A stretch of 28,924 nucleotides of DNA, taken from the IMG/VR virus record IMGVR_UViG_3300021335_000065, positions 1-28,924 of that record. One strand, 5' to 3'. The stretch comes from a virus. Below are positions 1-25,595 of the stretch, in pieces. The notes under the pieces are model-generated. The model searched no databases. It was not told the DNA's origin and saw only the letters and a program-made list of their open reading frames with translations. Positions within the stretch are counted from its first letter, which is position 1, and every line of letters begins with the position of its first letter. The position numbers and the translations under genes are program-made.

Positions 1-4
1 TCCT

Positions 5-250: not shown

Positions 251-290
251 GATATAATAAAATTAAATAATTAAAAAGAGATAAAAACTA

Positions 291-310
291 CCCCCGCAAT
301 TAAGCGGAGG
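291..310 (-). terminator. Rho-independent terminator-like hairpin after the left capsid gene
   Basis: On the minus strand CCTCCGC pairs with GCGGGGG (one T-G pair) around a six-base loop, followed by TAGTTTTT. It lies 19 bp past the stop of the 481-aa capsid gene and would limit read-through into the 81-aa gene. Confidence 0.7.
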
Positions 311-328
311 TAATTAATATCAGAAAAA

Positions 329-1774: not shown

Positions 1775-1784
1775 GTTTTAAATT

Positions 1785-3005: not shown

Positions 3006-3036
3006 AATATGATAATATAAAATTAATTAATAAAAT

Positions 3037-5451: not shown

Positions 5452-5455
5452 TTAT

Positions 5456-7678
5456 CTAAATTATTTTTGATGTAGAACCATCGTTATTGTATCTTTTTAT
5501 TCCTAAGTTCATTGGTTTAAAAACTTTTTTAGCTACTGGAGCATATTTATTTTTATTACAAGCCATTATAGCAAGCCCAGAACTTATAGAAGCATCGTGC
5601 TTTGTTCTGTTATTAAGATTAAATTTTGACCAATCATTTAATGTTCTTGTAAAATACAAATCCCCGTGAGTTTCTCCATTAAATCCAACGTGAGAATCAA
5701 TGTAAGATTCTATAGCAGCCGCGTGAGCTTGTTTCATATCTTCACTCGAGTTAGGCACTCCACCTATTTCTCTTTCTGTAACTGATAGTTTATTATAAAC
5801 TTTATCAGGTCTGTTCATAGAGTAACCCCTGTAACCTCTTCGTTTTAAATAATATAATAATCTAGGCTTATTGTTTTCTGCAAGTATTGGCATTCCATAA
5901 AATACTAAAGCCATTAATACATCTTCAAAAAATATTTCAGCATTATCGGGTCGTGATATATATTCTAAAAAAAAATGGTTTGGGGGTATGTCTTCCATTG
6001 TAAATTTAGTAAGCCCGTGAAGAGACCCTTTGGATCCTCTGCCGTCTACTGTACCAGATATATCATAACTATCACATCCAAACGCGCCACAATGCTCATT
6101 AGCCGGGTATCTTAAGTTACCTTTTGAAATAGATCTGTTTTGCATATTATGTGGTGGTATCCACGAAATAAAAAATCTACCATTATTATTAGGTGCAAAC
6201 TCTACTAATGAATCTTTTACACCACCTTGCCATTGAAAATTACCCTGTGTAATAAGGCCGGTATACTTCATTTCCTCTACATAATCTATTTGCTCGTATA
6301 TTTTAGTCAGATTAAATAAGGACTGTTTTGTTTCATCGCGAAACGCGTGTTGCGTCGTTCTCGGGAATTGTCTATAAAATTCATTTAAAGCATCTTGATC
6401 TTTTTTTAAACCGTCAACTTCATTTATCCAATAATCAATTACACCTGTATCTATTTCAGTTCCGTCAATACTTTTGACCGGTTTTTCTGGTGTATTGAAT
6501 ACAGGTATTCCATGCATATCAATGAATCCTTCGTAATTCCACTCCATAGGTATGAACAAAGAATATAATCCTGAGCTAGTCTGTCCGTTGCGGTTTCTTT
6601 TAGTAACGTCTGATCCTTCATATAATTTTTTAAAATTATTACCTCCTTTATCTAAAGCGTTAGAGGTAGAACCCATCATACATTTACCGACTATTCTACT
6701 ACCTAGCCTTAATGTTGTTTTGGTTACTCTCCAGTTATTAATTATATTATCTGGCCTTTCCCATTTACCAGATTCATCATGAACTAAAAGCTTTAACTTT
6801 TCTCCGTCATAAGAGTTATCGCCTGTGTTTTTCCAGTCGATTGTGGTGTCAAGCCCATCAATTTCAGCTAATTGTTCGCCTATTTCTATCTTGCGCCGAG
6901 TAAGTTTGGAGGCGGGCACTCGGTAAGCAAGCTCTGTTTTGGGGCGATCCATACCGTCTTGAACGGGCTTGAAGAAGAAAGGGTAGTTAATTGATATTGG
7001 AACAACTTTATCGGTAAACATTTTTTTGGCATCTGCCCCAGTTTTTGATAAAATTCCAAATCTTGCGTCGCTTGACATTGTTGCCTGGTTAACAGTTTCG
7101 TTCGATGCCATGAAGCTAAACCCAGACCGTCTGTTTTTGAGATAGCATATTCCATAACATCTGGTATCTGCTTTGCACGCTTCCCAGAAAATATAGAATA
7201 ACCTATTTGATTCTCTAAAGTCGGCGGCCCCAACGTCAATCTTAGTCCACTGCAAGTACATGTAATGAGACCCAGTAATATAAGTTTCAACGCCATTATT
7301 GTAGAACGCAAAACCTTCTTCTCTATATTTAAATTCATTATCTATATAATCGTACCATTGTTCTTTAAAATTATCAGGATAATTATTCCAATCAAATACA
7401 CTTTTAATTTTTTGTAATTCTTTGGGATAATTAAACTTTTGCCAATATTGTTCTTGTTTCTTATTGGATCTTTTAAAGCATCTATTAATTAATGGTAAAC
7501 CAATTTTTAAGCCTTGAATATTGTATATTTCTCCAATTTCACCTGATTTACTTATTACAACTAAATCATGTTCTTTGTTATATCCGTATCCCCAACTCTT
7601 TTGTTTATTTTTTTTCTTTAATATATTGGGCTTTACATAATCAGGTATTACTGAATATAATGTTTGCTTATATATCAT
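5456..7678 (-). CDS. terL: Large terminase subunit (ATPase and nuclease)
   Basis: The 740-aa protein is the packaging motor. Residues 181-188 (KNRRSGFS) look like a degenerate Walker A loop; 297-302 (LLVHDE) is a good Walker B with the catalytic glutamate; a Ser/Gly-rich motif III follows near 336-347. The C-terminal half fits an RNase H-like nuclease: D536 in FGCD, E601 in LAENN and D695 in KHDAS are the likely metal ligands. The length is greater than most terminases (400-600 aa), with an N-terminal extension of about 120 residues. Its ATG overlaps the stop of the upstream 88-aa gene (ATGA), and the portal follows, so the set should be co-translated. No terminase for the right-hand module is visible; it would lie beyond the right edge. 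Confidence 0.85.
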   Translation of the reverse strand: MIYKQTLYSVIPDYVKPNILKKKNKQKSWGYGYNKEHDLVVISKSGEIGEIYNIQGLKIGLPLINRCFKRSNKKQEQYWQKFNYPKELQKIKSVFDWNNYPDNFKEQWYDYIDNEFKYREEGFAFYNNGVETYITGSHYMYLQWTKIDVGAADFRESNRLFYIFWEACKADTRCYGICYLKNRRSGFSFMASNETVNQATMSSDARFGILSKTGADAKKMFTDKVVPISINYPFFFKPVQDGMDRPKTELAYRVPASKLTRRKIEIGEQLAEIDGLDTTIDWKNTGDNSYDGEKLKLLVHDESGKWERPDNIINNWRVTKTTLRLGSRIVGKCMMGSTSNALDKGGNNFKKLYEGSDVTKRNRNGQTSSGLYSLFIPMEWNYEGFIDMHGIPVFNTPEKPVKSIDGTEIDTGVIDYWINEVDGLKKDQDALNEFYRQFPRTTQHAFRDETKQSLFNLTKIYEQIDYVEEMKYTGLITQGNFQWQGGVKDSLVEFAPNNNGRFFISWIPPHNMQNRSISKGNLRYPANEHCGAFGCDSYDISGTVDGRGSKGSLHGLTKFTMEDIPPNHFFLEYISRPDNAEIFFEDVLMALVFYGMPILAENNKPRLLYYLKRRGYRGYSMNRPDKVYNKLSVTEREIGGVPNSSEDMKQAHAAAIESYIDSHVGFNGETHGDLYFTRTLNDWSKFNLNNRTKHDASISSGLAIMACNKNKYAPVAKKVFKPMNLGIKRYNNDGSTSKII

Positions 7679-7941
7679 TTAGATCTTTTTTCAGCAAAGC
7701 CCCCGAATGTTTTTTGATTAGTAGATTTATCTTCTAATAACTTTTCTTCGGTTTCAATTCTTGTTAATATTTCAAATGCATCAAATATCGCTAACTTTTT
7801 TGTTGCTGCTGCATTTTTAAGTCTATCCGCTGATATGTCATCTTCTGAATCTACAATAGCTTCTTTGGCTACCTTAATTAACTCTTCAACCGCTTTTTGC
7901 CCAGCTTGGATTATACTCAGCTTGGTTTTCTTTACGTTCAT
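7675..7941 (-). CDS. Small protein upstream of terL, possible small terminase subunit
   Basis: An 88-aa, helical, charged protein starting MNVKKTKLSI. It stops inside the terL start codon (ATGA overlap). The position suggests a small terminase subunit or packaging partner, but no helix-turn-helix is obvious, so this is only positional inference. An upstream in-frame ATG at 7959 would add six residues; I prefer 7941 because the added residues are MILLLN and the longer form increases the overlap with the upstream GroES-like gene from 56 to 74 bases. Either way the two genes overlap substantially. Confidence 0.65.
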   Translation of the reverse strand: MNVKKTKLSIIQAGQKAVEELIKVAKEAIVDSEDDISADRLKNAAATKKLAIFDAFEILTRIETEEKLLEDKSTNQKTFGGFAEKRSK

Positions 7942-8491
7942 ATTTAATAACAATATCATTAGATTTCATACAATATAATCGCTCGTCATCAATTATAAAC
8001 TCCCACTCGCTATTTGGAGTAAAACCCACGAGGTCGCCAGGGGTTATTTCGAGCGCGTTTAACGAGCTATTGCCATACTTTAGTATACCAATATACTTTT
8101 GCTCTTTTTCTAAGCTTGTAGGGTCATTATTTATAAGAGGCTTAACAAAGCATCTATCCATAAATGAATGCCACTTATTGCTTTTTTTGTAAAGATACAC
8201 CTGATCAGGCTGACAAAAATAAAGATTGTCTTTAAAATATTTGCTACTATTTTTTTCTTTACCTTTTATATCATAATATCTTCTAAAAACATTATGATGA
8301 ATTACGATTTCGTCACCTTCTTTTATAATGGTATTATAAGCTTTTGGTGTAGATACAACTCTAGCAAGTTTATTTATAAACTTAAATGATTCTATATTGC
8401 AATTTAATATTAAATCTTTATTATTTACGTTAGTTGTATTATTGTATCTTTCTCCAATAGGCTCAACGATAAAATCGTAGATGCTATTCAT
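7886..8491 (-). CDS. Tandem GroES-like co-chaperonin-type protein
   Basis: This 201-aa protein appears to hold two GroES-like beta-barrels. Domain 1 (about 5-103) has FIVEPIGERY, then LARVVSTP, IKEGDEIVIHHNVFRRYYD and DNLYFCQPDQVYLYK, matching the order of GroES elements (V-PLGDRV, VVAVG, VKVGDKVLF, YLILREDDIL). Domain 2 (about 107-185) repeats it: MDRCFVKPL, then IGILKYG, ITPGDLVGF, and DDERLYCMKSNDIVIKYE. GroES caps the GroEL folding chamber; phage versions such as T4 gp31 adapt it for capsid folding. A separate GroES and GroEL lie 4 kb upstream in the same direction. The domain 1 segment 17-40 could be a mobile loop, but no IVL-type GroEL-binding tripeptide is clear. A structural role is possible instead. 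Confidence 0.65.
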   Translation of the reverse strand: MNSIYDFIVEPIGERYNNTTNVNNKDLILNCNIESFKFINKLARVVSTPKAYNTIIKEGDEIVIHHNVFRRYYDIKGKEKNSSKYFKDNLYFCQPDQVYLYKKSNKWHSFMDRCFVKPLINNDPTSLEKEQKYIGILKYGNSSLNALEITPGDLVGFTPNSEWEFIIDDERLYCMKSNDIVIKYERKENQAEYNPSWAKSG

Positions 8492-8714
8492 ATTCTAAAT
8501 TATATTCAACAGAAATAGCCATATTAGAATTAAACTTCTTCCACGGCAATACTTCATTGTTTTTTTTAATAAAAATATTATAAGAACTATCAGTATCTTC
8601 AAATATGATATAAGCTATTTTGTGTCCTCCGTATACTTCTTGGCCTACAGAGTAATGCATAGCATCATTTTTATAATCAGAACCGATGCTGATCTTCCTT
8701 ATAATGCTGCTCAT
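8484..8714 (-). CDS. Hypothetical 76-aa protein
   Basis: A short, soluble protein with mixed charge. It has a beta-type pattern (HKIAYIIFEDTDSSYNIFI) and no recognised motif or membrane segment. Its stop overlaps the start of the tandem GroES-like gene by eight bases, and it begins two bases after the preceding gene, so it is part of the same tightly packed transcript. A role with the GroES-like protein is possible from translational coupling only. Confidence 0.6.
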   Translation of the reverse strand: MSSIIRKISIGSDYKNDAMHYSVGQEVYGGHKIAYIIFEDTDSSYNIFIKKNNEVLPWKKFNSNMAISVEYNLEYE

Positions 8715-8715
8715 C

Positions 8716-8967
8716 TTATTTTTCTTCTTGCTTTTCTATTTCTTTGTAAACACCCGTTTCCAAATCAATACTAATTGCTCCATATTCTTTTTCAAGGTCT
8801 TTTTTATAAGCTTCCATATCTTGCTCAAGTCCAGCGTATTCATGTAATAAAACGTGTTTTTGATTTTCAACAAGCCCAATGTCCCTCAATTTGTTATTCA
8901 TTGTTACTTGTTGCTCTTTAATTTTAGCTAATTGTTCCTCTGTTACTTTTTTTTCTTTTGCACTCAT
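8716..8967 (-). CDS. Hypothetical coiled-coil protein, 83 aa
   Basis: Almost the whole protein is Lys/Glu/Gln-rich helix (EEQLAKIKEQQVTMN and KDLEKEYG), ending in an acidic segment. It should form a short coiled coil. It follows the holin-like gene after an AT-rich gap of 19 bp. No family is recognised; small coiled-coil proteins beside holins sometimes act as lysis regulators or spanin-like parts, but nothing here proves it. Confidence 0.6.
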   Translation of the reverse strand: MSAKEKKVTEEQLAKIKEQQVTMNNKLRDIGLVENQKHVLLHEYAGLEQDMEAYKKDLEKEYGAISIDLETGVYKEIEKQEEK

Positions 8968-8986
8968 TTGATTAAATTTAATTAAA

Positions 8987-9367
8987 TTATTTTACTTTAT
9001 CTTTTATTTTCTCAAAGGTTCTTAATCCGCCAAGACCAAGCATTCCTAATAAGACTGTCATTAAATGCTCCATTTGTAATGCCGGAGGAGCGTCCGTTGT
9101 TTTTGTTATCCAAATAAATAAATCTCTAATTACGAAGTTATATGCTAATGCCACCCCGCAAACCCATCCTATAAATGGACGCCAACCAGCAACAAATACT
9201 GTTCTATGGCCGGCTTCAATTTCATTTATTTTAGTTTGCAATTCTATTATTTCATTTGGGTCTAATTCTTTACCCTTGATTGCTTCTCTTATTTCCCACG
9301 CTAAATTGCCAGCTACTGACTTTCTGCCATCACCGCCTTTTAGTAGGCCTAATAATAATTTTAACAT
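8987..9367 (-). CDS. Holin-like membrane protein (left-hand phage)
   Basis: A 126-aa protein with a short amphipathic start, a charged helical segment (about 15-52), then FVAGWRPFIGWVCG, a hydrophobic helix at about 64-86, and a second at about 101-116, with a basic tail. The W-RP-F motif before the first helix and the overall layout match the three-TM holin family known from gene-transfer agents and marine phages (recalled as PF11351). Such proteins open the inner membrane at lysis. The gene just upstream encodes an HExxH metallopeptidase-like protein, giving a plausible lysis pair. It resembles in layout the protein at 19449-19859. Confidence 0.65.
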   Translation of the reverse strand: MLKLLLGLLKGGDGRKSVAGNLAWEIREAIKGKELDPNEIIELQTKINEIEAGHRTVFVAGWRPFIGWVCGVALAYNFVIRDLFIWITKTTDAPPALQMEHLMTVLLGMLGLGGLRTFEKIKDKVK

Positions 9368-9370
9368 AGC

Positions 9371-9679
9371 TTAAGCTTTATCGTAAGCTTCTTTTTCCCA
9401 AGGAAGATTTTTAGCGCCTTCCCGCATTTGACTCCTAGAATATGTTTTACCCTTCCAGTAAACATTATTGTCGTCATAATCTAGATCACCTCTTTTAAAT
9501 TGATCAATATGAACCATTTCATGATCAACAACTTTTTTAGTTTTAGATGGATCTAAATTTTTATTTATTAATATAGTACCATTATTATTAGCTTTGCCTA
9601 ATACATCATTACCTAAATCTACATTATATATAGGCGTATTGTCTAAATTATACGGAGGTGTATTAAGTTTAAAAGCCAT
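9371..9679 (-). CDS. HExxH metallopeptidase-like protein, 102 aa
   Basis: The protein carries H53-E54-M-V-H57, the zinc-binding and catalytic motif of zincin peptidases, in VDHEMVHIDQF. A late acidic segment (LPWEKEAYD, E95 or E97) could give the third zinc ligand. The Asp/Asn-rich stretch at 66-73 is conspicuous. It is very short for a peptidase, so it may be a minimal catalytic domain. No signal peptide is seen. It is followed three bases later by the holin-like gene, parallel to the M15 peptidase and holin-like pair at 19.4-20.3 kb. It could therefore act in lysis, or be a virion protease; the substrate is unknown. Confidence 0.6.
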   Translation of the reverse strand: MAFKLNTPPYNLDNTPIYNVDLGNDVLGKANNNGTILINKNLDPSKTKKVVDHEMVHIDQFKRGDLDYDDNNVYWKGKTYSRSQMREGAKNLPWEKEAYDKA

Positions 9680-9834
9680 TACTTATAAGGAAACATTTTA
9701 TTTAATTTATCTTTGCGAGCAGAACAGCCGCAGGGGATATTTAAACCCTCTGCGACTCTATCTACTACACTTTTAATTCCAGTAACCTTAGTGACTTTTT
9801 CAATTGAATCACCAAGTCCTTTAGAATCACTCAT
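9679..9834 (-). CDS. Small CxC-motif protein, 51 aa
   Basis: Translation gives a 51-aa protein beginning MSDSKGLGDS and ending NKMFPYK. It contains IPCGCSARKDKLN, a short Cys-x-Cys motif followed by a basic segment, which I recall from other small phage proteins. The start overlaps the stop of the upstream gene (TAATG type) and its stop overlaps the start of the HExxH gene by one base, strong support for a real gene. Two cysteines could bind metal as part of a dimer. The function is unknown. Confidence 0.7.
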   Translation of the reverse strand: MSDSKGLGDSIEKVTKVTGIKSVVDRVAEGLNIPCGCSARKDKLNKMFPYK

Positions 9835-10142
9835 TATACAACTGCAAATTCAGTTACAGTAATACCAGCTGCAAGGCCAACTGTTGATTTTACACCACCC
9901 GGATTAGCTGTAAGTGCCGCATTAACCGCATCTCTTACGCTAGGAGTAGTTTCTGCGCTATGAGTTAGTACTATAGTATTAAGCACAGCAGAGTCTGTGT
10001 GAATAGTAGTTTTAGTACCTTCATTAGCTCCAGCCTCATCACCAGAAGTAACTGTAATTACTGAGTCTGTGTTAAGTAAGTGTTGTCCGTCTTCGAAAGC
10101 ATCCGCGCCTCCAACGACTTTGATAGAAATAAATCTTGCCAT
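9834..10142 (-). CDS. Hypothetical 102-aa protein, possible virion protein
   Basis: A Thr/Val/Ala-rich, low-charge protein (MARFISIKVV start, GITVTEFAVV end) with alternating beta-strand pattern, as in small phage decoration or virion proteins. There is no membrane segment or catalytic motif. It is preceded by a 64-bp gap with an unusual A/C-rich leader (AACAACAAAATG), suggesting strong, unstructured translation initiation. That would fit an abundant structural protein, though this is inference only. Confidence 0.6.
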   Translation of the reverse strand: MARFISIKVVGGADAFEDGQHLLNTDSVITVTSGDEAGANEGTKTTIHTDSAVLNTIVLTHSAETTPSVRDAVNAALTANPGGVKSTVGLAAGITVTEFAVV

Positions 10143-10206
10143 TTTGTTGTTGTTTTTGTTATTGTTAATGTTTATGTTTTGCTAGGTTTATACAGTCCTA
10201 TCTGTT

Positions 10207-10719
10207 TTATTTATAATCTCTTCGAGATTTGCTCATGTCACCTTTTTTGCCACCATACATTTTAGTGGGAGCGCTATAATCTCTATCTGACATGCTTTCA
10301 TCGCCTTTATTACCACCGTATTTTTGTCGGCTTGCAACAGAGGGCTTACCAACTTGTTGGCCATAACCTTTATTAAGGTTTGCTATAGGAGCCATATCTG
10401 CAGCACCTTTATTTTGTGTGATGTCATCTACGGGATTATAAGCAAGATCTGCATTCATGCTCATTCCTTTGGAAGCAAACCTAGGATGATTGCCTGTATA
10501 AGTTCCTACGTTACCACTACGCATTGTAGCCATAGAGCCTTGTTTAACTTGGCCCATCATAGACATACCTTCATCTTTCATCATCATGCCTTCGTCCTTC
10601 ATAGACATACCTTTTTTATCATGCATGGCATTTTTAAGATAATTAAATCTTGCTGACTTTGTAAGATCTTTGTTGTATGCTTCTTTCATGTCATACTTTT
10701 CTGCTTTACCGTGTCCCAT
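10207..10719 (-). CDS. Repeat-rich Met/Gly/Lys protein, 170 aa
   Basis: A low-complexity basic protein, probably disordered. Residues 36-54 contain short repeats of the form GMSMKDEG / MMMKDEG / MSM. The C-terminus contains two copies of a YGG-KGD...RDY unit (residues about 133-150 and 154-169). It is unusually methionine-rich. The gene has an A/C-rich leader like its downstream neighbour. I recognise no function; possible roles are a nucleic-acid-binding internal virion protein or scaffold, both inferred from composition alone. Confidence 0.6.
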   Translation of the reverse strand: MGHGKAEKYDMKEAYNKDLTKSARFNYLKNAMHDKKGMSMKDEGMMMKDEGMSMMGQVKQGSMATMRSGNVGTYTGNHPRFASKGMSMNADLAYNPVDDITQNKGAADMAPIANLNKGYGQQVGKPSVASRQKYGGNKGDESMSDRDYSAPTKMYGGKKGDMSKSRRDYK

Positions 10720-10765
10720 AATTTTTGTGTTTTGGTTTGTGTTTGTTATTGTTGTTGTTTAATTA

Positions 10766-11071
10766 TTAGCAATTCCACTTTCTTAATGCTAGAGCTTTTC
10801 TTGTTGGCTCACCGTTAGGTTTTTTCATAGGTCCTTTAACGCCACTCATTCTAGCACAAAACGATTTTCTTCTTTTAGCAGCTTTGCTACCTTTTTTTAA
10901 TTTAGAAGGAGGAGTAGTAACCGCTGTTTGCAATTTGCTTCCAGGGTTTTCTTTTCTGTAAGATTTAACTCCTTTTTCGTTGAGTCCACCTTTAGGGTCT
11001 TTACCTTCTTTACGAGTCCATGCCGCTGTTTTCTTTTTTAAAAACGGCGAAGAGTTTTGTATATATGCCAT
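10766..11071 (-). CDS. Basic protein, DUF6321-like
   Basis: A 101-aa, strongly basic protein. Landmarks are AWTRKEGKDPKGGLN near residues 17-31, a KGSKAAKRRKSFCARMSG block near 60-77 and a terminal ALRKWNC. These match, from memory, a domain of unknown function found in phages and some bacteria (DUF6321). The SFCARMSG segment with its cysteine and the end cysteine may form a small metal site. Charge suggests nucleic-acid binding. Its ATG overlaps the stop of the upstream membrane-protein gene. Confidence 0.7.
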   Translation of the reverse strand: MAYIQNSSPFLKKKTAAWTRKEGKDPKGGLNEKGVKSYRKENPGSKLQTAVTTPPSKLKKGSKAAKRRKSFCARMSGVKGPMKKPNGEPTRKALALRKWNC

Positions 11072-11217
11072 TATTTTATGAGTTTAGACCATTTCATTAC
11101 GGTATATCCTATAGTAACAACCAATAGAACAATTTTTAGCCACACCTCTATTTCCATCATAGTCACTACTCCAACTGATCCGTTGATAGCTAGTAACTTT
11201 ATATGCCCTATATCCAT
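11071..11217 (-). CDS. Small membrane protein, 48 aa
   Basis: Translation gives MDIGHIKLLAIN, then a hydrophobic stretch near 11-20 and a clear membrane helix WLKIVLLVVTIGYTVMKW (about 26-43), ending SKLIK. The stop overlaps the next ATG and the start lies two bases after the preceding stop, so the packing supports it. An 85-aa reading frame in another phase over the same bases is a shadow. It resembles in size and layout the 47-aa protein at 20697-20840. Possibly a holin-type or accessory lysis protein. Confidence 0.7.
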   Translation of the reverse strand: MDIGHIKLLAINGSVGVVTMMEIEVWLKIVLLVVTIGYTVMKWSKLIK

Positions 11218-11219
11218 TA

Positions 11220-11429
11220 TTATTCTCCTCTTGCGGCTTTGGCAATTTGAGTAATAGCTCCCGCTTTATAAAATGTTGGAGCTTTTTTAACTTCCATACC
11301 AGTAGCACCCGAACTAGAGCCATTACCCATAGGAAATCCATTTGTATTTAAAGGACCATCCCATACGTGAGATTCTCCTACTTGCCCTTTAAGTTGCGGG
11401 TTCGAAATAATTGCTTTACTTTTGTCCAT
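11220..11429 (-). CDS. Hypothetical 69-aa protein
   Basis: A Gly/Ala/Lys-rich protein (MDKSKAIISN start, AGAITQIAKAARGE end) with no membrane segment and no known motif. Proline, glycine and asparagine in the middle suggest a loop-rich small virion protein. It sits in the co-directional run between the small regulator-like gene and the 48-aa membrane protein gene, separated by two bases from each side or nearly so. No function can be assigned. Confidence 0.6.
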   Translation of the reverse strand: MDKSKAIISNPQLKGQVGESHVWDGPLNTNGFPMGNGSSSGATGMEVKKAPTFYKAGAITQIAKAARGE

Positions 11430-11431
11430 AA

Positions 11432-11878
11432 TTATCTGTACTTATCTTTATTAACGTTATCTATAGAAACCTTTAAAACTTTATTAGTGTAGGTTTCACC
11501 TTTCATTATTACATTTCTGCGTTCGCTCATTGGAATATCTTCTTCGCCAAGCATTATCTTATATATTTTATTTATAAGTTGTTTGCACTTAAAAGAAGTT
11601 TTATATATATTGTACTTTTGTGTTGTGTGATTTCTTTTGCGCCATACCATTATCCAGCCTTCTTTTAATAATGTATTCCATCTTCTATTATTCCAGCTAT
11701 ATGAATAAGCACCCATTTTAAAATCTATTTTACTAAACAGATCAACACAATCTAAATATATTAAAAGCTCTAAATCAGCATCAGTCATGCCGTTATTTTT
11801 AGCAGCCCACTTCCTTATAATTCTATAATGCTTAAGCAAGTTAAGATCTTTTAAATCTCTTGCCTCTAATCTTTTCAT
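11432..11878 (-). CDS. Winged-helix-like protein of unknown role
   Basis: The 148-aa protein is basic and helical at the start (KHYRIIRKWAAKNNGM), with ADLELLIYLDCVDLF then SYSWNNRRWNTLLKEGWIMV, a pattern that resembles a winged-helix DNA-binding domain (helices followed by a beta hairpin with a W-wing). It has a basic segment at about 95-110 (TSFKCKQLINKIYKIM). It overlaps the GroES stop by four bases, so it may be translated with the chaperonin genes. It could be a transcription factor of the phage, but no close relative is recognised with certainty. Confidence 0.6.
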   Translation of the reverse strand: MKRLEARDLKDLNLLKHYRIIRKWAAKNNGMTDADLELLIYLDCVDLFSKIDFKMGAYSYSWNNRRWNTLLKEGWIMVWRKRNHTTQKYNIYKTSFKCKQLINKIYKIMLGEEDIPMSERRNVIMKGETYTNKVLKVSIDNVNKDKYR

Positions 11879-12135
11879 AAAACAATTACAACGTCTTGGA
11901 GCTTAATTACTTGCAAAACTTCTTTGTTTATTTCAACGCCATGCCCTGCATGTTTGTCATAATAAATGTCATCGTTTTCAACAACTCCAACTACTTCAGA
12001 ACCTACGGATATTACTTTAGCTTTATTATATCTTAAATCTTCTCTTTGATTTTCAGTTAACAATAAGCCTCCTTTGGTTTCAGAAGTACCTTGTTTTTCT
12101 TTTTTAATTATTAAGTTTCTACCTATTGCCTTCAT
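11875..12135 (-). CDS. groES: GroES co-chaperonin (phage-encoded)
   Basis: At 86 aa it is close to normal GroES length (about 95). It has the GroES order: an N-terminal strand IGRNLIIKK, a mobile-loop region GTSETKGGLLLTENQ that would contact GroEL, KVISVGSE, a weaker roof region and the closing strand LQVIKLQDVVIVL. It forms the lid on the GroEL ring during protein folding. It overlaps the end of groEL by 17 bases, the reverse of the usual bacterial groES-groEL order. In phages this gives host-independent folding of virion proteins. Divergence from host-type sequences is clear, fitting a long-held viral copy. Confidence 0.85.
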   Translation of the reverse strand: MKAIGRNLIIKKEKQGTSETKGGLLLTENQREDLRYNKAKVISVGSEVVGVVENDDIYYDKHAGHGVEINKEVLQVIKLQDVVIVL

Positions 12136-13672
12136 TAATACGTAAATTATTAATTATACAATCTGTAGATAATATAGTAGTTGCAACTGATGCAGCATTT
12201 TTTAATGCTGTTTTAGTCACAAGCAACGGATCAATTATTCCAGACTTAATCATATTTTTACTTTGTCCAGTAATAACATCTAAGCCCCAGCCTTTTTTAT
12301 TTAGCTCTACAATATCAAAATTTGCATTTTGTAGTATTGTAATATACGGAGCTTTAATAGCTTCTAATAATATTTCTTCCGCTTTGTTTTCAGGCTTAAT
12401 TTGGGTTGATGCATTTAATAATGCAACGCCGCCTCCAGGTACAATACCTTCCTTAATAGCAGCTTTAGTAGCGCAAATAGCATCTTCAACCCTATCTGCT
12501 TTTTCTTTTAACTCAATATCTGAATCTGCCCCAACTTTTACCGTAGCAATCTTAGCTGATAGCCTAGCTAATCTTTTTTCAAGTCTTATAATTTCTGCAG
12601 CATTGTTTTTGCCAGATAAATCTTTTTTAATTTTATTGATTACTTCTGATACTTCATCAGTAATACTTTCAACTTTTATAATAGTCTCTGTATCATTAGT
12701 AACAGCTTTCAAACATTTACCTAAATGTTCTGGCTGAATTAAATCCATGTCATCACCTAAATCTTCATTTATAATAGTAGCTCCTGTTAATAATGCCAAA
12801 TCAGTTAGCATATCTTTTTTAGCCACACCATAAGTAGGTGCATTAATAACATTAATTTTTACATTACCTTTTATTTTATTCATCGCCAATGTAGAAATAA
12901 CTTTAGGATCTAAATCAGCTATAATAAGCAAAGGCTTACTTTTCTTTATAATGTATTCTAATACAGATTGTATTTTACGTATATTTTCTACCGGAGATTC
13001 AATTAATAATACATAAGGATTATCTAGTTCTGCAACTTTTGAATCTTGCTTAGTAATAAAATGTGAATTTGTTAATCCTTTTTCGTATTGTAAACCATCA
13101 ATTAGTTCTGATGTTGTTTCGGATAGCTCTGTTGTTTCCATCATAACCACGCCTGTCTCATCTACAGATCTAAAAGCGTTTGCGATGGTTCTACCCAGCT
13201 TAATATCATTATTAGTAGATATACTAGCCACTTGATCAATCATATCGCCTGTGACTCTTACAGAAGCTTTTTCTAAATGCTGAACAACTTTTTGTACAGC
13301 ACTATCGATACCCTCTTTCAAATTTCTAGCCCCTAATTCCTTTAACTGCGGGTATGCTTCAGTTAAAATTGAGTGCGCTAGCACTGTAGCCGTTGTCGTT
13401 CCGTCGCCAGCTTCTCTTACAGTTTTCCTAGCGGCTTCCTTTAAAAGCGTAGCACCCATATTTTCAATAGGGTCTAATAGTACAATTGAATCAGCTACAG
13501 TTACGCCATCTTTAGTAATAACAGGTTTTCCTGATCCATCTTCTAATATCACACGTTTACCGCTAGCCCCGAGTGTAGAGCTAACGGCTTTTGTGAGTTT
13601 GTTTATACCTTCAAATAGTTTATCCTTAGCTTCGTGACCAAAGCTGAGGTTTTTGACAATTGCGTCTGACAT
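12119..13672 (-). CDS. groEL: GroEL chaperonin (phage-encoded)
   Basis: This 517-aa protein is a full-length group I chaperonin. The nucleotide site is intact: KDGVTVA at 54-60 (D55), GDGTTTATVLA at 89-99, D397 in VEDA (the residue needed for ATP hydrolysis) and GGG at 413-415. The apical domain is divergent around 199-205, where the E. coli substrate and GroES contact YLSPYF is LTNSHF here, so the substrate or lid choice may differ. The Gly-Gly-Met tail of bacterial GroEL is absent; the protein ends NEGNR. It assembles as a ring with the GroES encoded just downstream. A likely role is folding of capsid or tail proteins. Confidence 0.93.
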   Translation of the reverse strand: MSDAIVKNLSFGHEAKDKLFEGINKLTKAVSSTLGASGKRVILEDGSGKPVITKDGVTVADSIVLLDPIENMGATLLKEAARKTVREAGDGTTTATVLAHSILTEAYPQLKELGARNLKEGIDSAVQKVVQHLEKASVRVTGDMIDQVASISTNNDIKLGRTIANAFRSVDETGVVMMETTELSETTSELIDGLQYEKGLTNSHFITKQDSKVAELDNPYVLLIESPVENIRKIQSVLEYIIKKSKPLLIIADLDPKVISTLAMNKIKGNVKINVINAPTYGVAKKDMLTDLALLTGATIINEDLGDDMDLIQPEHLGKCLKAVTNDTETIIKVESITDEVSEVINKIKKDLSGKNNAAEIIRLEKRLARLSAKIATVKVGADSDIELKEKADRVEDAICATKAAIKEGIVPGGGVALLNASTQIKPENKAEEILLEAIKAPYITILQNANFDIVELNKKGWGLDVITGQSKNMIKSGIIDPLLVTKTALKNAASVATTILSTDCIINNLRINEGNR

Positions 13673-13703
13673 GATTTAATTAAATTTAATTTAAGTATTT
13701 TAT

Positions 13704-13985
13704 TTAAAAGGTTTTTACAACAACTGGTCCTTCAGAAAGTTTTAGTTTTTTAGCGTAATGTTCAATTGAAGATTCAATTGCTTTTTCAGCTCCTTCAATT
13801 GTTTCACGTCTTGTAATTCCGTTCCAGTTTTCGTTGAAATCAATCCATTCGGCCTGGTAATAGCCGTTAGGAAGTTGTGTTATTCGCCAATTTTTTTTCT
13901 TTGAATAACGCTTCCAAATTTTCTTGGTTTCTTCGGATACTTGTGGTTGACTAGACCACGATTGAGTCTGGTAAAATAGTGTCAT
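13704..13985 (-). CDS. Hypothetical 93-aa protein
   Basis: A small Trp/Tyr/Lys-rich protein (seven Trp or so) with a beta-type centre (NWRITQLPNGYYQAEWIDF) and a helical end (GAEKAIESSIEHYAKKL). The fold could resemble a small double-stranded RNA-type or beta-beta-alpha domain, but no family is recognised. It lies 31 bp ahead of groEL, and a link with the chaperonin operon is only positional. Confidence 0.55.
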   Translation of the reverse strand: MTLFYQTQSWSSQPQVSEETKKIWKRYSKKKNWRITQLPNGYYQAEWIDFNENWNGITRRETIEGAEKAIESSIEHYAKKLKLSEGPVVVKTF

Positions 13986-14034
13986 TGGTATTGGTTTAAA
14001 ATTAGTTAGGTTTATAGTTTATTATTACTTGTAA

Positions 14035-14496
14035 TTACTCACCTTTACAAGAGCAGCTGTCTTCGCCACATATGCATTTTTTTTCAACTCTTAATTGCCT
14101 CCGTGCCCCATCGCGATCATCATAATCTAATGCTGCTTTTAATATAATCTTGTCCATTACATCATCCTGGTTTTTTAGCATTTCTTTTTGAAGGTTAATT
14201 ACCATAGATTCTAAATCGTCTTTTGATTTAGTTAGATAATCTATTTGTAATTGCTTTTTTTCTATATCACCTTTTAACGAATTAACATCATCAGGTTTAG
14301 CACCGGTTATAGTGCTAATAACAATACCAATAGAAGCAGAAATGGTTCCGATTAGCATCATTACAACCTCTTTGTTTGTTTCTAATACTGGAAACATTAC
14401 AAGCCATACTACTATTCCTATAATTAGTAAGAATACAAATAAACTTCCAATATAATGTCTTATTTCGCGCGCTATGCCGTTTCTTGGTAATTTCAT
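14035..14496 (-). CDS. Membrane plus coiled-coil protein, copy A
   Basis: The 153-aa protein starts MKLPRNGIAREIRHYIGS, has two adjacent membrane helices (about 17-36 and 42-62), the motif TITGAKPDD, a charged coiled coil (about 70-112) and a cysteine-rich end (CICGEDSCSC). It is clearly related to the 125-aa protein at 20315-20692, sharing MKLP-NG, IRHY-GS, ISTITG-PDD and KD-LE-MVI-LQ; I judge about 45 percent identity over 105 residues by eye. The other copy lacks the cysteine-rich tail. A spanin- or holin-like lysis or a membrane-anchor role is possible; the function is unknown. Confidence 0.7.
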   Translation of the reverse strand: MKLPRNGIAREIRHYIGSLFVFLLIIGIVVWLVMFPVLETNKEVVMMLIGTISASIGIVISTITGAKPDDVNSLKGDIEKKQLQIDYLTKSKDDLESMVINLQKEMLKNQDDVMDKIILKAALDYDDRDGARRQLRVEKKCICGEDSCSCKGE

Positions 14497-19859: not shown

Positions 19860-20318
19860 TTAAAAAAAAATGTATTGTGTTTTTTTATTCTTTTTTACAG
19901 CCTTTAAAACATTGCCTCTGTTTGTGTTTACATTTACAAAAGAAACGTGAATCCAGTCAGGGTTTTCATCATCTCCAAACTCCCAGATCAATTGGTCAAA
20001 GTTTAAATTTTCTTTGATATAATAAAAAAGTTCAGCATTAGATTTATCGCCAAGTGAATCAATATCAATTGCCTGTCCTTTTGTGTGCTGGCTTGTCGCT
20101 TTTGATTTTAACTTAATACAAAGTTCTGGTGAACGAAAGAAACTGTTTACACGAATCGGATGTCCAGCCCATTCTCGAAGTGGCTCAAAAACATTTTTTG
20201 CAATTTTCTTCATTTCCTGAATCTGGTTCTCGTTTGGAATATTTTCAATTTCGTGCTTTTCAGCCGTTTTACTTTTTACAGCTTCATTCCAAGTAATATG
20301 TTTGCTTATGAATCTCAT
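19860..20318 (-). CDS. M15-type peptidase (endolysin)
   Basis: A 152-aa protein of the Peptidase_M15_3 type. The zinc motif S76-Q-H78-T-K-G-Q-A-I-D85 (SxHxxGxAxD) and the second motif W122-I-H124-V-S are intact, with a likely catalytic acid in IWEF near 111-114. Members cut peptidoglycan stem peptides as D-Ala-D-Ala or L-Ala-D-Glu peptidases. There is no signal peptide, so export depends on the holin-like protein next door. Its ATG overlaps the stop of the upstream membrane gene (ATGA), fitting a lysis cassette of the right-hand phage. Confidence 0.85.
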
Positions 20319-20692
20319 GATTTTTTATTAATAAAGTCGTGCTTTAAAGTGTTATTCAACAAAAGCTTGTCAATTGTGTCATCTTGTAATTTTATGACCA
20401 TAGCCTCCAAAGAATCTTTTTGACTTACAAGCAAGTCAATTTTAGTTTCAAGGTTTGATATTTTCTTTTTATGGGCTTCCAAATCATCTGGATTCCTTCC
20501 TGTAATTGTCGAAATAATCATTGTTAAACTTGCAGCAATCATTCCAATTAAAGTGTTTATTATTTGAGCGTTTTCATCTGGGATGCTGTATTTGGTTAAA
20601 TAACCTAAAATCCCAACTATTAGAAAAAAAACAACTAAAGACCCTGAATAATGTCTTATATCTTTTGCTGCTCCGTTGCTTGGTAGTTTCAT
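20315..20692 (-). CDS. Membrane plus coiled-coil protein, copy B
   Basis: The 125-aa relative of the protein at 14035-14496. It starts [18 protein letters not shown], has two membrane helices (about 18-35 and 42-63), [11 protein letters not shown], then a coiled coil (about 70-105). It lacks the cysteine-rich end of copy A. The place directly before the endolysin and after a 47-aa membrane protein suggests a lysis role such as spanin or holin partner. The function is inferred from position only. Confidence 0.7.
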
Positions 20693-21984: not shown

Positions 21985-22500
21985 TTAAATAAACATATTT
22001 TTAAAGCCTTGTAAAATTTGGGTGACTTTTGTTGGAACTTGAACAAAAGAAACTCCTTGTAATACGATAAAATCAGCCCTATTGTCATAATAGGTTGAAA
22101 CCAACTGCAAAATTGCTTGTTGTAGTAATCCGTCATCCATTCCAGCTGTTGTGTAATTTACAATTATGTCTTTTGCAGGGAGTTGATTTAAGGCGATAAC
22201 TTCATCATGCAGACCATAAGTATCATAATCAGCAGATGATCCCTCTACTGTCACGCTGGTTATTGTATTCAATGGCCCGAAAGGAATTATAAACCTATCC
22301 TTTGCAGATTCTAAATAATACTGTCTTGATTTCGCAACAATATCTCTGCCAATATAATTTTCAGACCATATCCTGGCTTGTTCAATCATTGTTCCAATTA
22401 AAGTGTCATCATCAGAGGTGTCAATTCTCATATATGATTTTGCAACTGTAACAGTTACAATTTCACTTCCAGTTGTAGAAACTATTTTTTCGCTTGGCAT
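21985..22500 (-). CDS. gp6-like head-tail connector
   Basis: A 171-aa protein with VTVAKSYMRIDTSDDD (about 18-33), IEQARIWSENYIG (about 42-54), a strand PFGPLNTITSVTV and a helical end. The VT-AK-YLRID and A--W-ENYI-R pattern is the hallmark of phage gp6/gp15-type connectors, which form the ring directly under the portal. The start overlaps the stop of the small upstream gene. Confidence 0.85.
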   Translation of the reverse strand: MPSEKIVSTTGSEIVTVTVAKSYMRIDTSDDDTLIGTMIEQARIWSENYIGRDIVAKSRQYYLESAKDRFIIPFGPLNTITSVTVEGSSADYDTYGLHDEVIALNQLPAKDIIVNYTTAGMDDGLLQQAILQLVSTYYDNRADFIVLQGVSFVQVPTKVTQILQGFKNMFI

Positions 22501-22697
22501 TATTTAGCTTTTTTAGTTGTTCTTTTTTTTGCAGTTTTATTTTCTTTTGTCTGCTTGACGGCTTTTTCCTCTTTTAGTTCAATTCCGATTTGCCTTGATA
22601 AATAGTGTTTTGCAGTTTTTGCATCGAGTTCATAAACTTGACCCTCATATCTCCAGCCCTTTGTGGAAAATACGTCTTTTAACATTTTAATTTTCAT
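22500..22697 (-). CDS. Small basic protein, 65 aa
   Basis: A small protein with KIKMLKDVFSTKGWRYEGQVYELD at the N-terminal half (a compact beta-type domain) and a Lys/Thr-rich tail (KTKENKTAKKRTTK-like). Such proteins sit near neck genes in many siphoviruses; an equivalent is often recorded as an unknown head protein. It starts the connector operon after the terminator at 22721-22755. Confidence 0.65.
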   Translation of the reverse strand: MKIKMLKDVFSTKGWRYEGQVYELDAKTAKHYLSRQIGIELKEEKAVKQTKENKTAKKRTTKKAK

Positions 22698-22713: not shown

Positions 22714-22721
22714 CAAAGATA
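22714..22721 (-). promoter_or_regulatory. TATCTTTG element, likely -7 box
   Basis: Minus-strand TATCTTTG exactly fits the Bacteroidota TAnnTTTG -7 consensus. It lies right after the T-run of a terminator and 16 bases before the ATG of the 65-aa gene, a sensible place to restart transcription of the neck genes. A matching -33 TTG is not visible at the usual spacing. Confidence 0.4.
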
Positions 22722-22755
22722 AAAAAAATTGCGCCACCATAATCAGCAGCGCAAT
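22721..22755 (-). terminator. Rho-independent terminator after nuclease gene
   Basis: Minus strand ATTGCGC pairs perfectly with GCGCAAT (extended by wobble pairs) around a loop, then an eight-T run. It separates the nuclease gene from the neck genes. Confidence 0.85.
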
Positions 22756-22798
22756 CCCAACAAACTATAAACAAAAATTTATGAAAAAGGTAAAAGAA

Positions 22799-23164
22799 TT
22801 ACCTTAAGTCAAAGGTATTAAAATTTTTCTTATATTTTCCAAAAGGGTTAATATTAAATGCAGTTTGATTTTTATTTTTTATAAAAAAAAATCCATCATA
22901 ATAATCAATCCAAAGTGCATAATAATCCACTTCTGAAGTACTATATTTTCTGTGCCTGGTGACGTGTATTCTGACACCAGTAGTGTTTTCGTATGGTTTT
23001 TTAGATGTTGATTTAACTTGTATTTTAACAAGTTTTCCGTTAATATCAGCGATTAAATCATAAACGGATGAATCGGCCAAAGGTCTTGAAACTTGATACC
23101 CCCTCTTTAATAATTCGGTTGCAATTTTAAATTCTGCTAAACATCCATAAATATTGACATCCAT
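22799..23164 (-). CDS. PD-(D/E)XK nuclease-like protein
   Basis: A 121-aa protein beginning MDVNIYGCLAEFK. E11, D36 (VYDLIAD) and Q49-V-K51 (KIQVKST) form the PD-(D/E)XK arrangement; the glutamine in place of the second acid is usual in the subfamily of holliday-junction-resolvase-like and intron-associated nucleases. It is a small soluble enzyme likely to cut DNA. It is flanked by terminators on both sides, so it forms its own transcription unit. The ATG at 23164 is preferred to the TTG two codons upstream. A possible moron with a role in DNA cleavage, repair or superinfection exclusion. Confidence 0.75.
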   Translation of the reverse strand: MDVNIYGCLAEFKIATELLKRGYQVSRPLADSSVYDLIADINGKLVKIQVKSTSKKPYENTTGVRIHVTRHRKYSTSEVDYYALWIDYYDGFFFIKNKNQTAFNINPFGKYKKNFNTFDLR

Positions 23165-23178
23165 GCTCAAATTTAGTC

Positions 23179-23207
23179 AAAAAAAAACATCCCCCAATCA
23201 AGGGGGA
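23179..23207 (-). terminator. Rho-independent terminator before nuclease gene
   Basis: Minus-strand TCCCCC pairs with GGGGGA around a six-base loop, followed by a nine-T run (TGTTTTTTTTT). It closes the tiny-gene cluster. Confidence 0.85.
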
Positions 23208-23245
23208 CATTTCCAACATTACTAACTAACTAAAAATGAAAAAAA

Positions 23246-23380
23246 TTATCTCATTGATGCCTCAAAACAAATGTTTGAGCAAAATTCTGAATCTGATTCC
23301 CTTCCGCACTCTGGGCATTCAAAAACATATTCTGATTCATAAAATATAGGATCATTTAGTTCCCTGTCTGGTATGTACAT
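23246..23380 (-). CDS. Tiny zinc-ribbon-like protein, 44 aa
   Basis: Translation gives a 44-aa protein that starts MYIPDREL. Cys22, Cys25 (CPEC), Cys34 and Cys38 (C-S-N-I-C) give a single zinc-finger-like site. The N-terminal part is acidic. It overlaps the previous gene by 29 bases. Zinc-ribbon-like phage proteins often bind nucleic acid or host polymerase; here only the fold can be suggested. Confidence 0.65.
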   Translation of the reverse strand: MYIPDRELNDPIFYESEYVFECPECGRESDSEFCSNICFEASMR

Positions 23381-23522
23381 AATCTCTGTCTTTTATTGTG
23401 TTAATTTTATCTTGAATTTCTTTTGCCTTCATTAATAAATATAAATAATCACTTGGGATCATTTTATCTTTGTTTTTGTCTATCATATCATAAACAAAGT
23501 CTAATATATCATTTTTTTCCAT
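23352..23522 (-). CDS. Tiny charged helical protein, 56 aa
   Basis: A 56-aa protein, MEKNDILDFVYDM start, lysine/aspartate-rich, predicted mostly helical (LLMKAKEIQDKINTI). It overlaps both neighbours (14 and 29 bases), which is the main support. No function is recognised. Confidence 0.6.
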   Translation of the reverse strand: MEKNDILDFVYDMIDKNKDKMIPSDYLYLLMKAKEIQDKINTIKDRDYVHTRQGTK

Positions 23523-23664
23523 AATCTGAACTGTTTATTAGTGCTGCAAGGATTACCATTCCAACTGAATCAATGTAAGCTGAATAAACAAAAACCAATC
23601 TAAATCCCCACAAAATAAATAATATTGAAGTGATAAGTTTTATTCTTTCTATCCGAGCATCCAT
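23509..23664 (-). CDS. Tiny membrane protein, 51 aa
   Basis: A 51-aa protein starting MDARIERIKL. It has two hydrophobic segments (about 10-27 and 34-44), likely a membrane hairpin, with a polar end (SSDYGKK). It overlaps the upstream gene by 16 bases and the next by 14. Confidence 0.6.
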   Translation of the reverse strand: MDARIERIKLITSILFILWGFRLVFVYSAYIDSVGMVILAALINSSDYGKK

Positions 23665-23816
23665 ACTATAATTTTTATAAAAGCATAATAAGAAAAGAAT
23701 ATTGCAGAAATTAAAACTGCAAATGCCTTTGATGCTTCAATTAAATTTTTTCTGTTTTCTTCGCTTGTTATTTCTTTAACAAGTCTGTATTCGTGTGTGT
23801 CTTGTATTCGTTTCAT
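23649..23816 (-). CDS. Tiny membrane-anchored protein, 55 aa
   Basis: A 55-aa protein starting MKRIQDTHEYRLVK. A charged helical half is followed by one membrane helix (AFAVLISAIFFSYYAFIKII, about 32-51). The orientation rule (basic residues first) predicts the N-terminus inside. It precedes another membrane protein, so they may work as a pair. Confidence 0.6.
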   Translation of the reverse strand: MKRIQDTHEYRLVKEITSEENRKNLIEASKAFAVLISAIFFSYYAFIKIIVWMLG

Positions 23817-23832
23817 ATTATTGTATTTAATA

Positions 23833-23849
23833 GGGGGGTTGCCCCCCCC
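23833..23849 (-). other. G/C-rich hairpin between tiny genes
   Basis: A strong stem of six G-C pairs with a three-base loop, between the 55-aa gene that ends at 23855 and the one starting at 23816. On the minus strand a T-rich but not T-run tail follows, so it may be a weak terminator or an mRNA stability hairpin. Confidence 0.5.
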
Positions 23850-23854
23850 TGTTG

Positions 23855-24022
23855 TTAATGTTTAAATTTCGAATTTATCTCTTTTATTATTTTTTCAGAA
23901 GCATTAAAATCTTTTAAAGTCCTACAATTTTTTTGAAATTCTTTTACCTCTCTTAATGTGCGAACTAAAGTAGCACTTGGTCTGCAAAGTTTAATGTCAT
24001 TTAAATTTGGTAATTGATACAT
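23855..24022 (-). CDS. Tiny basic protein, 55 aa
   Basis: A 55-aa protein starting MYQLPNLNDIKLC. It is basic and mostly helical, with two cysteines (position about 13 and 33) and a lysine-rich end. The leader is A/C-rich (AACAACAACAAC). It lies 26 bases after the preceding stop. No function is recognised. Confidence 0.55.
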   Translation of the reverse strand: MYQLPNLNDIKLCRPSATLVRTLREVKEFQKNCRTLKDFNASEKIIKEINSKFKH

Positions 24023-24048
24023 AATAATCGTTTTTAGTTGTTGTTGTT

Positions 24049-24219
24049 CTACTTATTACACTCAATTAAACACTCCTCGTAAGACTTATATCCTAAATTT
24101 TCATTAACTGTGTCAAGTTCATTGTTTTCAAACCTTGCTACTCTCCAAACGTTACAAGTAGTGTGATAAAATGGTTTGTTTTCAATTTGTGTACCAAAAA
24201 TGTTTGTAAATGCTTTCAT
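24049..24219 (-). CDS. Tiny protein, 56 aa, first of cassette
   Basis: A 56-aa protein beginning MKAFTNIFGTQIENK. It has three cysteines (TTCNVW; EECLIEC) and is acidic at the end. It is the first gene after the capsid terminator and a likely promoter, so it is probably the first gene of its transcript. No function is recognised. Confidence 0.55.
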   Translation of the reverse strand: MKAFTNIFGTQIENKPFYHTTCNVWRVARFENNELDTVNENLGYKSYEECLIECNK

Positions 24220-24246
24220 AATAATAATTGTTTTATGTTTATGGTG

Positions 24247-24278
24247 TAAATATATATGCTTTTTTTATATAACACAAA
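24247..24278 (-). promoter_or_regulatory. Probable Bacteroidota-type promoter
   Basis: Minus strand TTTG (24275-24278), 20-base spacer, then TATATTTA (24247-24254), one mismatch from the -7 consensus TAnnTTTG. It lies between the capsid terminator and the first tiny gene, 28 bases before its ATG. The two-part match and position make it the best promoter in the window. Confidence 0.5.
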
Positions 24279-24329
24279 CTTTTTTAACTTTTTTTAAAAT
24301 TATTTTACGTTTAGTAAATATTACAATAA

Positions 24330-24358
24330 AAAAGGGTAACCATAATGATCACCCTTTT
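24330..24358 (-). terminator. Rho-independent terminator after HK97-type capsid gene
   Basis: Minus strand AAAAGGGT pairs perfectly with ACCCTTTT around a 13-base loop, followed by a T-rich tail (TTTTTTATTG overlapping the stem). It lies 22 bp past the capsid stop. Confidence 0.85.
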
Positions 24359-24380: not shown

Positions 24381-25595
24381 TTAGGCAGTTTCAAGTGCTG
24401 TTTTAGCAGTTGAGAACGTACCTTGTACGATAGCGTTTGGCAAGTAATTTGTCAAAGCAACTCTTTCTTGTGCTTTTACAGTTACAAAACCATCTCTGAA
24501 GTTGGTAGAATCTTCTCGGCTAAAGCTAATTGCCAAGTTTTCTCTAATCCAAAGTTGAGTCGCTTGAGCAAGATTTCCAACAAGGAATTTACCAGCGGTC
24601 ACAGCTGTATTTACAGTCACAGGGATTCCCATGATTGTAGGCTGAATACCAGAGTAAATTTGTTGTCTTAAATACTCATTAGCAGTTGATTTCAATAATA
24701 CTACTTTATGCAGATCTGTTGGGTTCAATAGAATTGTATCGGCTTGATAGTTAGCCAATGCCAATTGATTCAATGCTGCAACAAGAACATCATATTCATT
24801 TGCAGATTCAACAGACTGATAAAAAGCACCACCAGAACCAGTAACAAAAGCAGTTCCATCAGTAAATAATCCGTCAAGGTTAGGAGCAGAACCATCACCA
24901 TTAAGAATTTCAGTATCTTCAACTGAAAGCACTTTGCTTGGCACTCTTGCAGATAGGTAAGAAGAAAGCTGTGGAGTATCCGCCAACATTTCTTCTGTTA
25001 ATCTCATATAAGTTCCGATTTTTTCCAAGTTTACGCTGGTTGCAGTAATATCGAAGTCAGACTGTCCAAGAGTTGAACCTTGAGCAGTTGCAGCGGCATT
25101 GTCAGAATATCCAGATTCTTTTGGGAAACGGATTGTCTGTGCGCTGGTAGAGCCTTGGGGAATCAAGTTTCTAACGTGTACGCTTCTGCTTGGGTCAAAT
25201 TTAAATTGAGAAACAACAGTTTCATCAGCAACAACGCCAGTATAATCAGCGGCCATTGTCATATCAGCTTTTACCTCAAATTGAGCAGCGTTTGTATTTC
25301 CTTTGATTAGTCCCTCAACAACTCCTTCTTTAAAAGCAGAGTCAAGCGCACCTTTGAATGATTTTGAGTTTACGCCAGAAAGTGTTTTTTTGGCATTAAC
25401 TTCCATTTCATCCATTCTTTTGTTCAATTCATCATTCTTTGAAACAAATTCATTTGATAGGTTTGAGATTTCACTTTTTAGTGATTCCTCGATTTGACCT
25501 TTTGCGTTATCCTGTGCGGAATTAAACGCTTTTTCGATTTTTGAATCAACCAGATTTCCTAAATTATCCAGTTGCTCTTTAATTTCTTCGTTCAT
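24381..25595 (-). CDS. HK97-type major capsid protein (right-hand phage)
   Basis: This 404-aa protein is an HK97-fold capsid precursor. Residues 1-100 are a charged coiled-coil delta domain (KSEISNLSNEFVS) that acts as built-in scaffold and is removed by the protease encoded just upstream, probably around residues 102-112. The body has the usual layout: N-arm, SAQTIRFPKE-like strand, E-loop, then DTEILNGDGSAPNLDGLF, and the C-terminal P-domain strands (TVKAQERVALTNYLP). The gene follows the protease by four bases and ends in a terminator. Wholly unlike the other capsid protein in this window. Confidence 0.9.
   Translation of the reverse strand: MNEEIKEQLDNLGNLVDSKIEKAFNSAQDNAKGQIEESLKSEISNLSNEFVSKNDELNKRMDEMEVNAKKTLSGVNSKSFKGALDSAFKEGVVEGLIKGNTNAAQFEVKADMTMAADYTGVVADETVVSQFKFDPSRSVHVRNLIPQGSTSAQTIRFPKESGYSDNAAATAQGSTLGQSDFDITATSVNLEKIGTYMRLTEEMLADTPQLSSYLSARVPSKVLSVEDTEILNGDGSAPNLDGLFTDGTAFVTGSGGAFYQSVESANEYDVLVAALNQLALANYQADTILLNPTDLHKVVLLKSTANEYLRQQIYSGIQPTIMGIPVTVNTAVTAGKFLVGNLAQATQLWIRENLAISFSREDSTNFRDGFVTVKAQERVALTNYLPNAIVQGTFSTAKTALETA

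Follow-up and report, generated by a model that had tools for sequence, protein, structure and literature searches.

A fixed nuclease of homing-endonuclease fold and a partly exchanged set of small genes between the capsid and connector genes of uncultured phages

The DNA between the major capsid gene and the head-tail connector gene of this phage forms a real, well-bounded and recurrent block, and the PD-(D/E)XK nuclease encoded in it belongs, as a single copy, to the core genes of the lineage rather than being a removable insert. The tiny genes that share the block form two layers, with a fast-turnover slot next to the capsid gene and a selected series next to the nuclease. Taken as a whole, we lean slightly towards a model in which the late operon is divided into four terminator-promoter units holding a domesticated nuclease and a cargo slot together with a selected gene series.

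The window analysed spans the 28,924 bases of a virus record in IMG/VR, with the block of interest on the minus strand. The HK97-fold major capsid gene (positions 24381 to 25595, minus strand; Pfam Phage_capsid 1.1e-36, phrog_10 3.7e-48) ends at 24381 and the connector gene (21985 to 22500, minus strand; phrog_442 1e-19, PF05135 3e-8) starts at 22500. The interval holds six ORFs of 44 to 56 residues, the gene for the 121-residue nuclease (22799 to 23164, minus strand) and, before the connector, a 65-residue gene, g65 (22500 to 22697, minus strand; phrog_2616 0.0043), which is found in most relatives and is core in the lineage. No tRNA was found, there was no Rfam match within the block, and a search of isolated phages for similar DNA found none. 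The original prediction had placed tiny ORFs, nuclease, terminators and a promoter here, and all were recovered on the minus strand, two of the terminators shifted by a few nucleotides.

Relatives were collected by capsid and connector searches of viral contigs, at a capsid identity of ∼55 to 100%, and represent a large, uncultured phage family that is mainly marine. The capsid-connector distance is 1187 to 2249 nt in a first set of 73 loci and 1190 to 2940 nt in 240 unique intervals with both ends sequenced, counts that include contigs related to one another and do not represent independent events. The nuclease is present in all 73 loci of the first set and in 240/240 complete intervals; it is also present in 159/159 loci that were found by the capsid alone and had at least 3.2 kb of downstream sequence, so its fixation is not an artefact of nuclease-based searching. 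In neither collection did we see the patchy presence or empty alleles that mark a mobile gene. The nuclease had been proposed as accessory cargo unless it turned out to be a core gene of related phages, which is what it is. It occurs once per genome in 29 of 30 whole records, the exception being a 51-kb record that duplicates the capsid too. In that record (G015, the record of locus L138; 51221 bases), capsid and nuclease are each found twice, ∼34 kb apart, a doubling such as an assembly wrapping around a circular or terminally redundant genome would give.

The nuclease gene has its ATG at 23164, six bases downstream of the TTG given in the ORF list, and the protein matches Pfam PDDEXK_5 (E 6.5e-17) and phrog_5018. 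Its E-D-QxK active site is intact, with E11, D36, Q49 and K51 invariant in 240/240 sequences, and pairwise dN/dS values are mostly 0.04 to 0.23 where informative. An AlphaFold (AF2) model with a pLDDT of 91 was made from an alignment of unedited sequences (A3), while an alignment of nucleases with edited start residues (A1) served for searching only. The best Foldseek match to this model was I-Ssp6803I (2ost; E 2.5e-8, TM 0.71 to 0.75), followed by archaeal Hjc resolvases (TM ∼0.5 to 0.6) and SPARDA nucleases. The protein has both the fold and the catalytic D-(E/Q)xK residues of I-Ssp6803I-type enzymes, with Asp and QxK aligned and a like size, and the deposited 2OST chain has Gln where the present protein has E11. 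Against the Pfam Hjc profile it scored 14.3 bits, under the cut-off of 21.1, and PADLOC returned "homing endonuclease" together with a marginal restriction-enzyme match (E 0.03). The nuclease clearly descends from an I-Ssp6803I-like homing-endonuclease family. Unlike I-Ssp6803I, a PD-(D/E)XK group I intron homing endonuclease, it lies outside any intron, shows no empty alleles and keeps to a single, fixed site in the lineage. A function as the sole junction resolvase was unsupported; other candidate nucleases are present in G010 (a VRR-NUC-like gene, recognised by eye) and in G001 (RusA), and a resolvase niche that may be filled otherwise counts against our model.

A homing enzyme can also reach fixation by drive. 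An unlikely but serious alternative is a nuclease that is still an active, free-standing homing endonuclease, fixed in this way and not through usefulness; it would cut alleles that lack it, spread and carry flanking genes along, with the exchanged tiny genes hitch-hiking on it. Both the nearest fold and the PADLOC match are homing endonucleases, a member of the family fills the gene 5.3 slot of the T7-like phage Kvp1, and the swap of one tiny gene (B55, described below) took place within the same cassette. The family also seems to have more than one address: 4 of the 30 whole records lack this capsid and have the nuclease at another position, which in the records read is near an ERF recombinase gene or directly ahead of it, suggesting two alternative genomic homes. 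Five loci without this capsid (L156, L113, L131, L160 and L174) have the same nuclease family before an ERF recombinase gene and an SSB-like gene. Essential phage genes, structural ones included, often have homing endonucleases nearby, as do the boundaries of exchanged segments (PMC10448857). The present nuclease likewise sits beside essential structural genes and near an exchanged segment, but it is single, has no flanking pairs and is always present, which sets it apart from the homing-endonuclease gene islands described there. Against continued homing stand the lack of an empty allele among the 240 relatives, the strong purifying selection with no decayed nuclease copies, the presence of one copy at one site, and the position of the swapped genes at the far side of the cassette, away from the nuclease. 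Nuclease distances also follow those of the connector, with a Mantel correlation of 0.51, about equal to that between capsid and connector (0.54), the correlation between nuclease and capsid being weaker (0.33); free movement of the nuclease within the lineage is unsupported by these values. Because the nuclease is fixed, is under selection and agrees with the connector in its distances, we favour a domesticated role.

The block is punctuated by three predicted terminators on the minus strand, T1 after the capsid gene (24330 to 24358; −15.0 kcal/mol), T2 before the nuclease (23183 to 23214; −18.4 kcal/mol) and T3 after it (22725 to 22758; −16.9 kcal/mol). Their folding z scores are −4.3 to −4.9, and the HK97-type half of the window (14 to 28.9 kb) has no other strong terminator on the coding strand. 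Among the 73 relatives they recur in 70, 67 and 65 loci, respectively, compared to a chance level of 1 to 3%. Each is followed by a promoter-like element on the same strand. P1 (24247 to 24278), ahead of the cassette, reads TTTG-N20-TATATTTA and fits the −7 consensus TAnnTTTG, which was mapped for flavobacterial sigma-A (PMC9723704), at 7/8 positions with the free ones counted; this consensus occurs within 200 nt after the capsid gene in 48/73 relatives compared to 10 expected. P2 (23168 to 23175; TAAATTTG) lies directly after T2, and P3 (22714 to 22721; TATCTTTG, found once in the window) is fused to T3 ahead of g65, the connector and the tail genes, the borders of the nuclease and g65 units resting on such consensus matches. 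A T-run leading straight into a TAnNTTTR-like box is found at the place of P2 in 129/151 intervals (5% in shuffled sequences) and a T-run with a box at that of P3 in 146/151 (3% shuffled), rising to 235/240 in the full set. The element after the nuclease is the strictest, a T-run with TATCTTTR, and it stays constant beside T3 arms that vary, with 45 distinct arm pairs in 84 intervals. The boxes linked to T-runs around the nuclease are mostly TATCTTTG or TATCTTTA, and the exact TTTTTATCTTTG form typically lies 15 to 17 nt before an ATG. A scan for E. coli-type promoters, the wrong class for these phages, gave no excess over shuffles. In the subclade of L185-L188/L191, T3 and P3 are lost and the nuclease gene, now part of the neck operon, ends ∼10 nt short of g65.

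Since the −7 boxes fit the flavobacterial sigma-A consensus, these phages probably infect Bacteroidota. When capsid relatives were sought in genome contigs, for a host or for empty sites, one close locus was found (L255); its contig is binned as a Woesearchaeota MAG, carries the capsid-nuclease-connector block and is probably a misbinned virus.

These signals support the proposal that the block is a transcriptionally separate unit where HK97-type operons continue without a break. We infer that the elements would work as terminators and sigma-A promoters, T1 to T3 insulating the genes on either side. Unit 1, the capsid and upstream genes, would end at T1; unit 2 would comprise P1, the tiny-gene cassette and T2; unit 3, P2, the nuclease and T3; and in unit 4, P3 would restart transcription of g65, the connector and the tail genes. 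Another reading of the punctuation, which we regard as highly improbable, is expression balance, with a terminator following an abundantly expressed capsid gene as in HK97-like phages and the small genes encoding minor assembly factors. The isolated phage mEpX2 does have an annotated terminator directly after the capsid gene, with the connector adjacent, and g65 and the nuclease are both core. This reading, however, covers T1 only and leaves aside T2, T3, the boxes, the membrane proteins and the turnover of the first slot.

The six tiny ORFs overlap one another on the minus strand (24219 to 23246) and encode proteins of 56, 55, 55, 51, 56 and 44 residues. Their reality as genes had been proposed subject to purifying selection, and this was confirmed for four of them, with pairwise dN/dS values mostly between 0.04 and 0.40; coding cover in 151 relatives is 0.77 on the forward strand compared to 0.15 on the reverse. 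The first two occupy a variable slot. A56 (24049 to 24219) has no homologue in the first 73 loci, whereas B55 (23855 to 24022) shares 85% nucleotide identity with L017/L026/L044 despite much more diverged capsid, nuclease and connector genes, so it was recently swapped between phages. A G/C-rich hairpin with a GGCAAC-type loop (23828 to 23854, minus strand) separates this slot from the gene series; many relatives have a covarying hairpin, with arms that change but stay complementary, ∼23 nt ahead of the gene for the first membrane protein, marking the border of the cargo slot. The series that follows consists of C55 (23649 to 23816; dN/dS mostly 0.04 to 0.37), a single-pass membrane protein with an N-terminal IVKxIT.EENRKN motif; D51 (23509 to 23664; 0.04 to 0.33), a membrane protein whose helix contains or adjoins conserved Arg and Asp residues; E56 (23352 to 23522; 0.05 to 0.40), a helical protein with a KMxPxDYLYL motif; and F44 (23246 to 23380), a CxxC...CxxxC zinc-ribbon-like protein. 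The two membrane-helix proteins and the zinc ribbon expected from the first reading of the sequence are present.

The two layers are also seen across the family. The interval ORFs from the first 73 loci group into 97 families, 45 of them singletons, with 41 families in 66 loci for the first slot compared to 11 for the slot before the nuclease. Beside the nuclease, the order membrane, membrane, helical, zinc ribbon recurs while the sequences drift. A membrane ORF is found in 142/151 intervals and two in 82/151; a zinc-ribbon ORF is found in 47/151, 40 of them directly before the nuclease, compared to 0.7% on the opposite strand. The description of the block as an inserted accessory island with its own control holds in that it is set apart by sequence signals and in that the capsid-proximal slot is accessory and exchanged, but it is true for those genes only, given a nuclease in every relative and a widespread neighbouring series.

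No convincing family match was found for the tiny proteins in Pfam/phrog-type profiles, nor did E56 or F44 match any isolated phage. The original prediction envisaged an island with its own control that might act in defence, superinfection exclusion or host takeover; a moron-like island of this kind, expressed on its own and protecting the infected cell through defence or superinfection exclusion, is a reading that we consider improbable. As in phage morons such as HK97 gp15 and JBD26 Tab, the cassette holds small late-operon genes, some of them membrane proteins, with conserved putative promoter and terminator elements of its own and a variable first slot, and known morons do sit in late operons, e.g., the 83-residue Tab between terminase genes (PMC10884400). 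Here, however, conservation extends to the adjacent nuclease and to much of the gene series, which are not extra genes: those without a counterpart in similar phages are those of the first slot, and the nuclease is core. Moreover, no PADLOC defence model matched any tiny protein, and there is no evidence of a temperate lifestyle, the sole close relative in the genome collections being L255, maybe a misbinned virus. Among the genes of the block, only the tiny ones may have a defence role.

Capsid and connector genes had been expected to be adjacent where the island is missing. No empty allele was found in the 240 relatives, but the two genes are adjacent or nearly so in isolated HK97-type phages at ∼30% capsid identity, with gaps of 33 nt in mEpX2, 53 nt each in Valrath and NV1.1.1, and 133 nt in Flavobacterium phage snusmum6-1. 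The mEpX2 head operon shares the order portal, protease, capsid, terminator and connector, whereas here 1.2 to 2.9 kb with further transcription units lie between terminator and connector. Because these distant phages have the two genes nearly adjacent, we conclude that the block was gained once, long ago.

The left half of the record is of a different nature. Positions 1 to 14000 encode another head set, unrelated to the first, with capsid-like, portal-like, terminase and GroEL genes that are collinear with the 60-kb podovirus MW202828; its terminase is found in none of 30 relatives of the right half. A junction near 14 kb probably makes the record a chimera or a hybrid. Two paralogous genes for small membrane proteins that begin MKLPRNG/MKLPSNG lie at 14035 to 14496 and 20315 to 20692, one of them near the suspected junction.

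For our model we count the fixation of the nuclease, its single copy, its fold, its invariant catalytic residues, purifying selection, its distance agreement with the connector, the punctuation, slot turnover and the B55 swap, as well as the ERF/SSB-like neighbours in sister phages and the joining of the nuclease to the neck operon in L185-L188/L191. Against it we count the weaker correlation between nuclease and capsid distances, the capacity of homing enzymes to reach fixation by drive and the reliance on consensus matches for the borders of the nuclease and g65 units. Late in infection, the nuclease may serve recombination or packaging by cutting DNA of the phage or of a competitor, either at a specific site or at branched structures. 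The cassette would offer a fast-exchanged cargo slot between P1 and the G/C hairpin, and the selected membrane, helical and zinc-ribbon proteins probably act together on the host envelope. We offer as a tentative and rather doubtful proposal the more specific picture of a homing-fold enzyme turned fixed late nuclease (for packaging, debranching or rival-DNA exclusion) beside a promoter- and hairpin-delimited slot that swaps small host-takeover genes.

A seemingly optional island thus becomes a tested pattern that recurs at one location in hundreds of uncultured phages, with a core nuclease, a selected series of small proteins and a fast cargo slot. It provides a clear case for asking when a nuclease of a selfish type turns into a required phage enzyme, and its conserved flanking signals mark where new small anti-host genes can be sought in phages of probable marine Bacteroidota.
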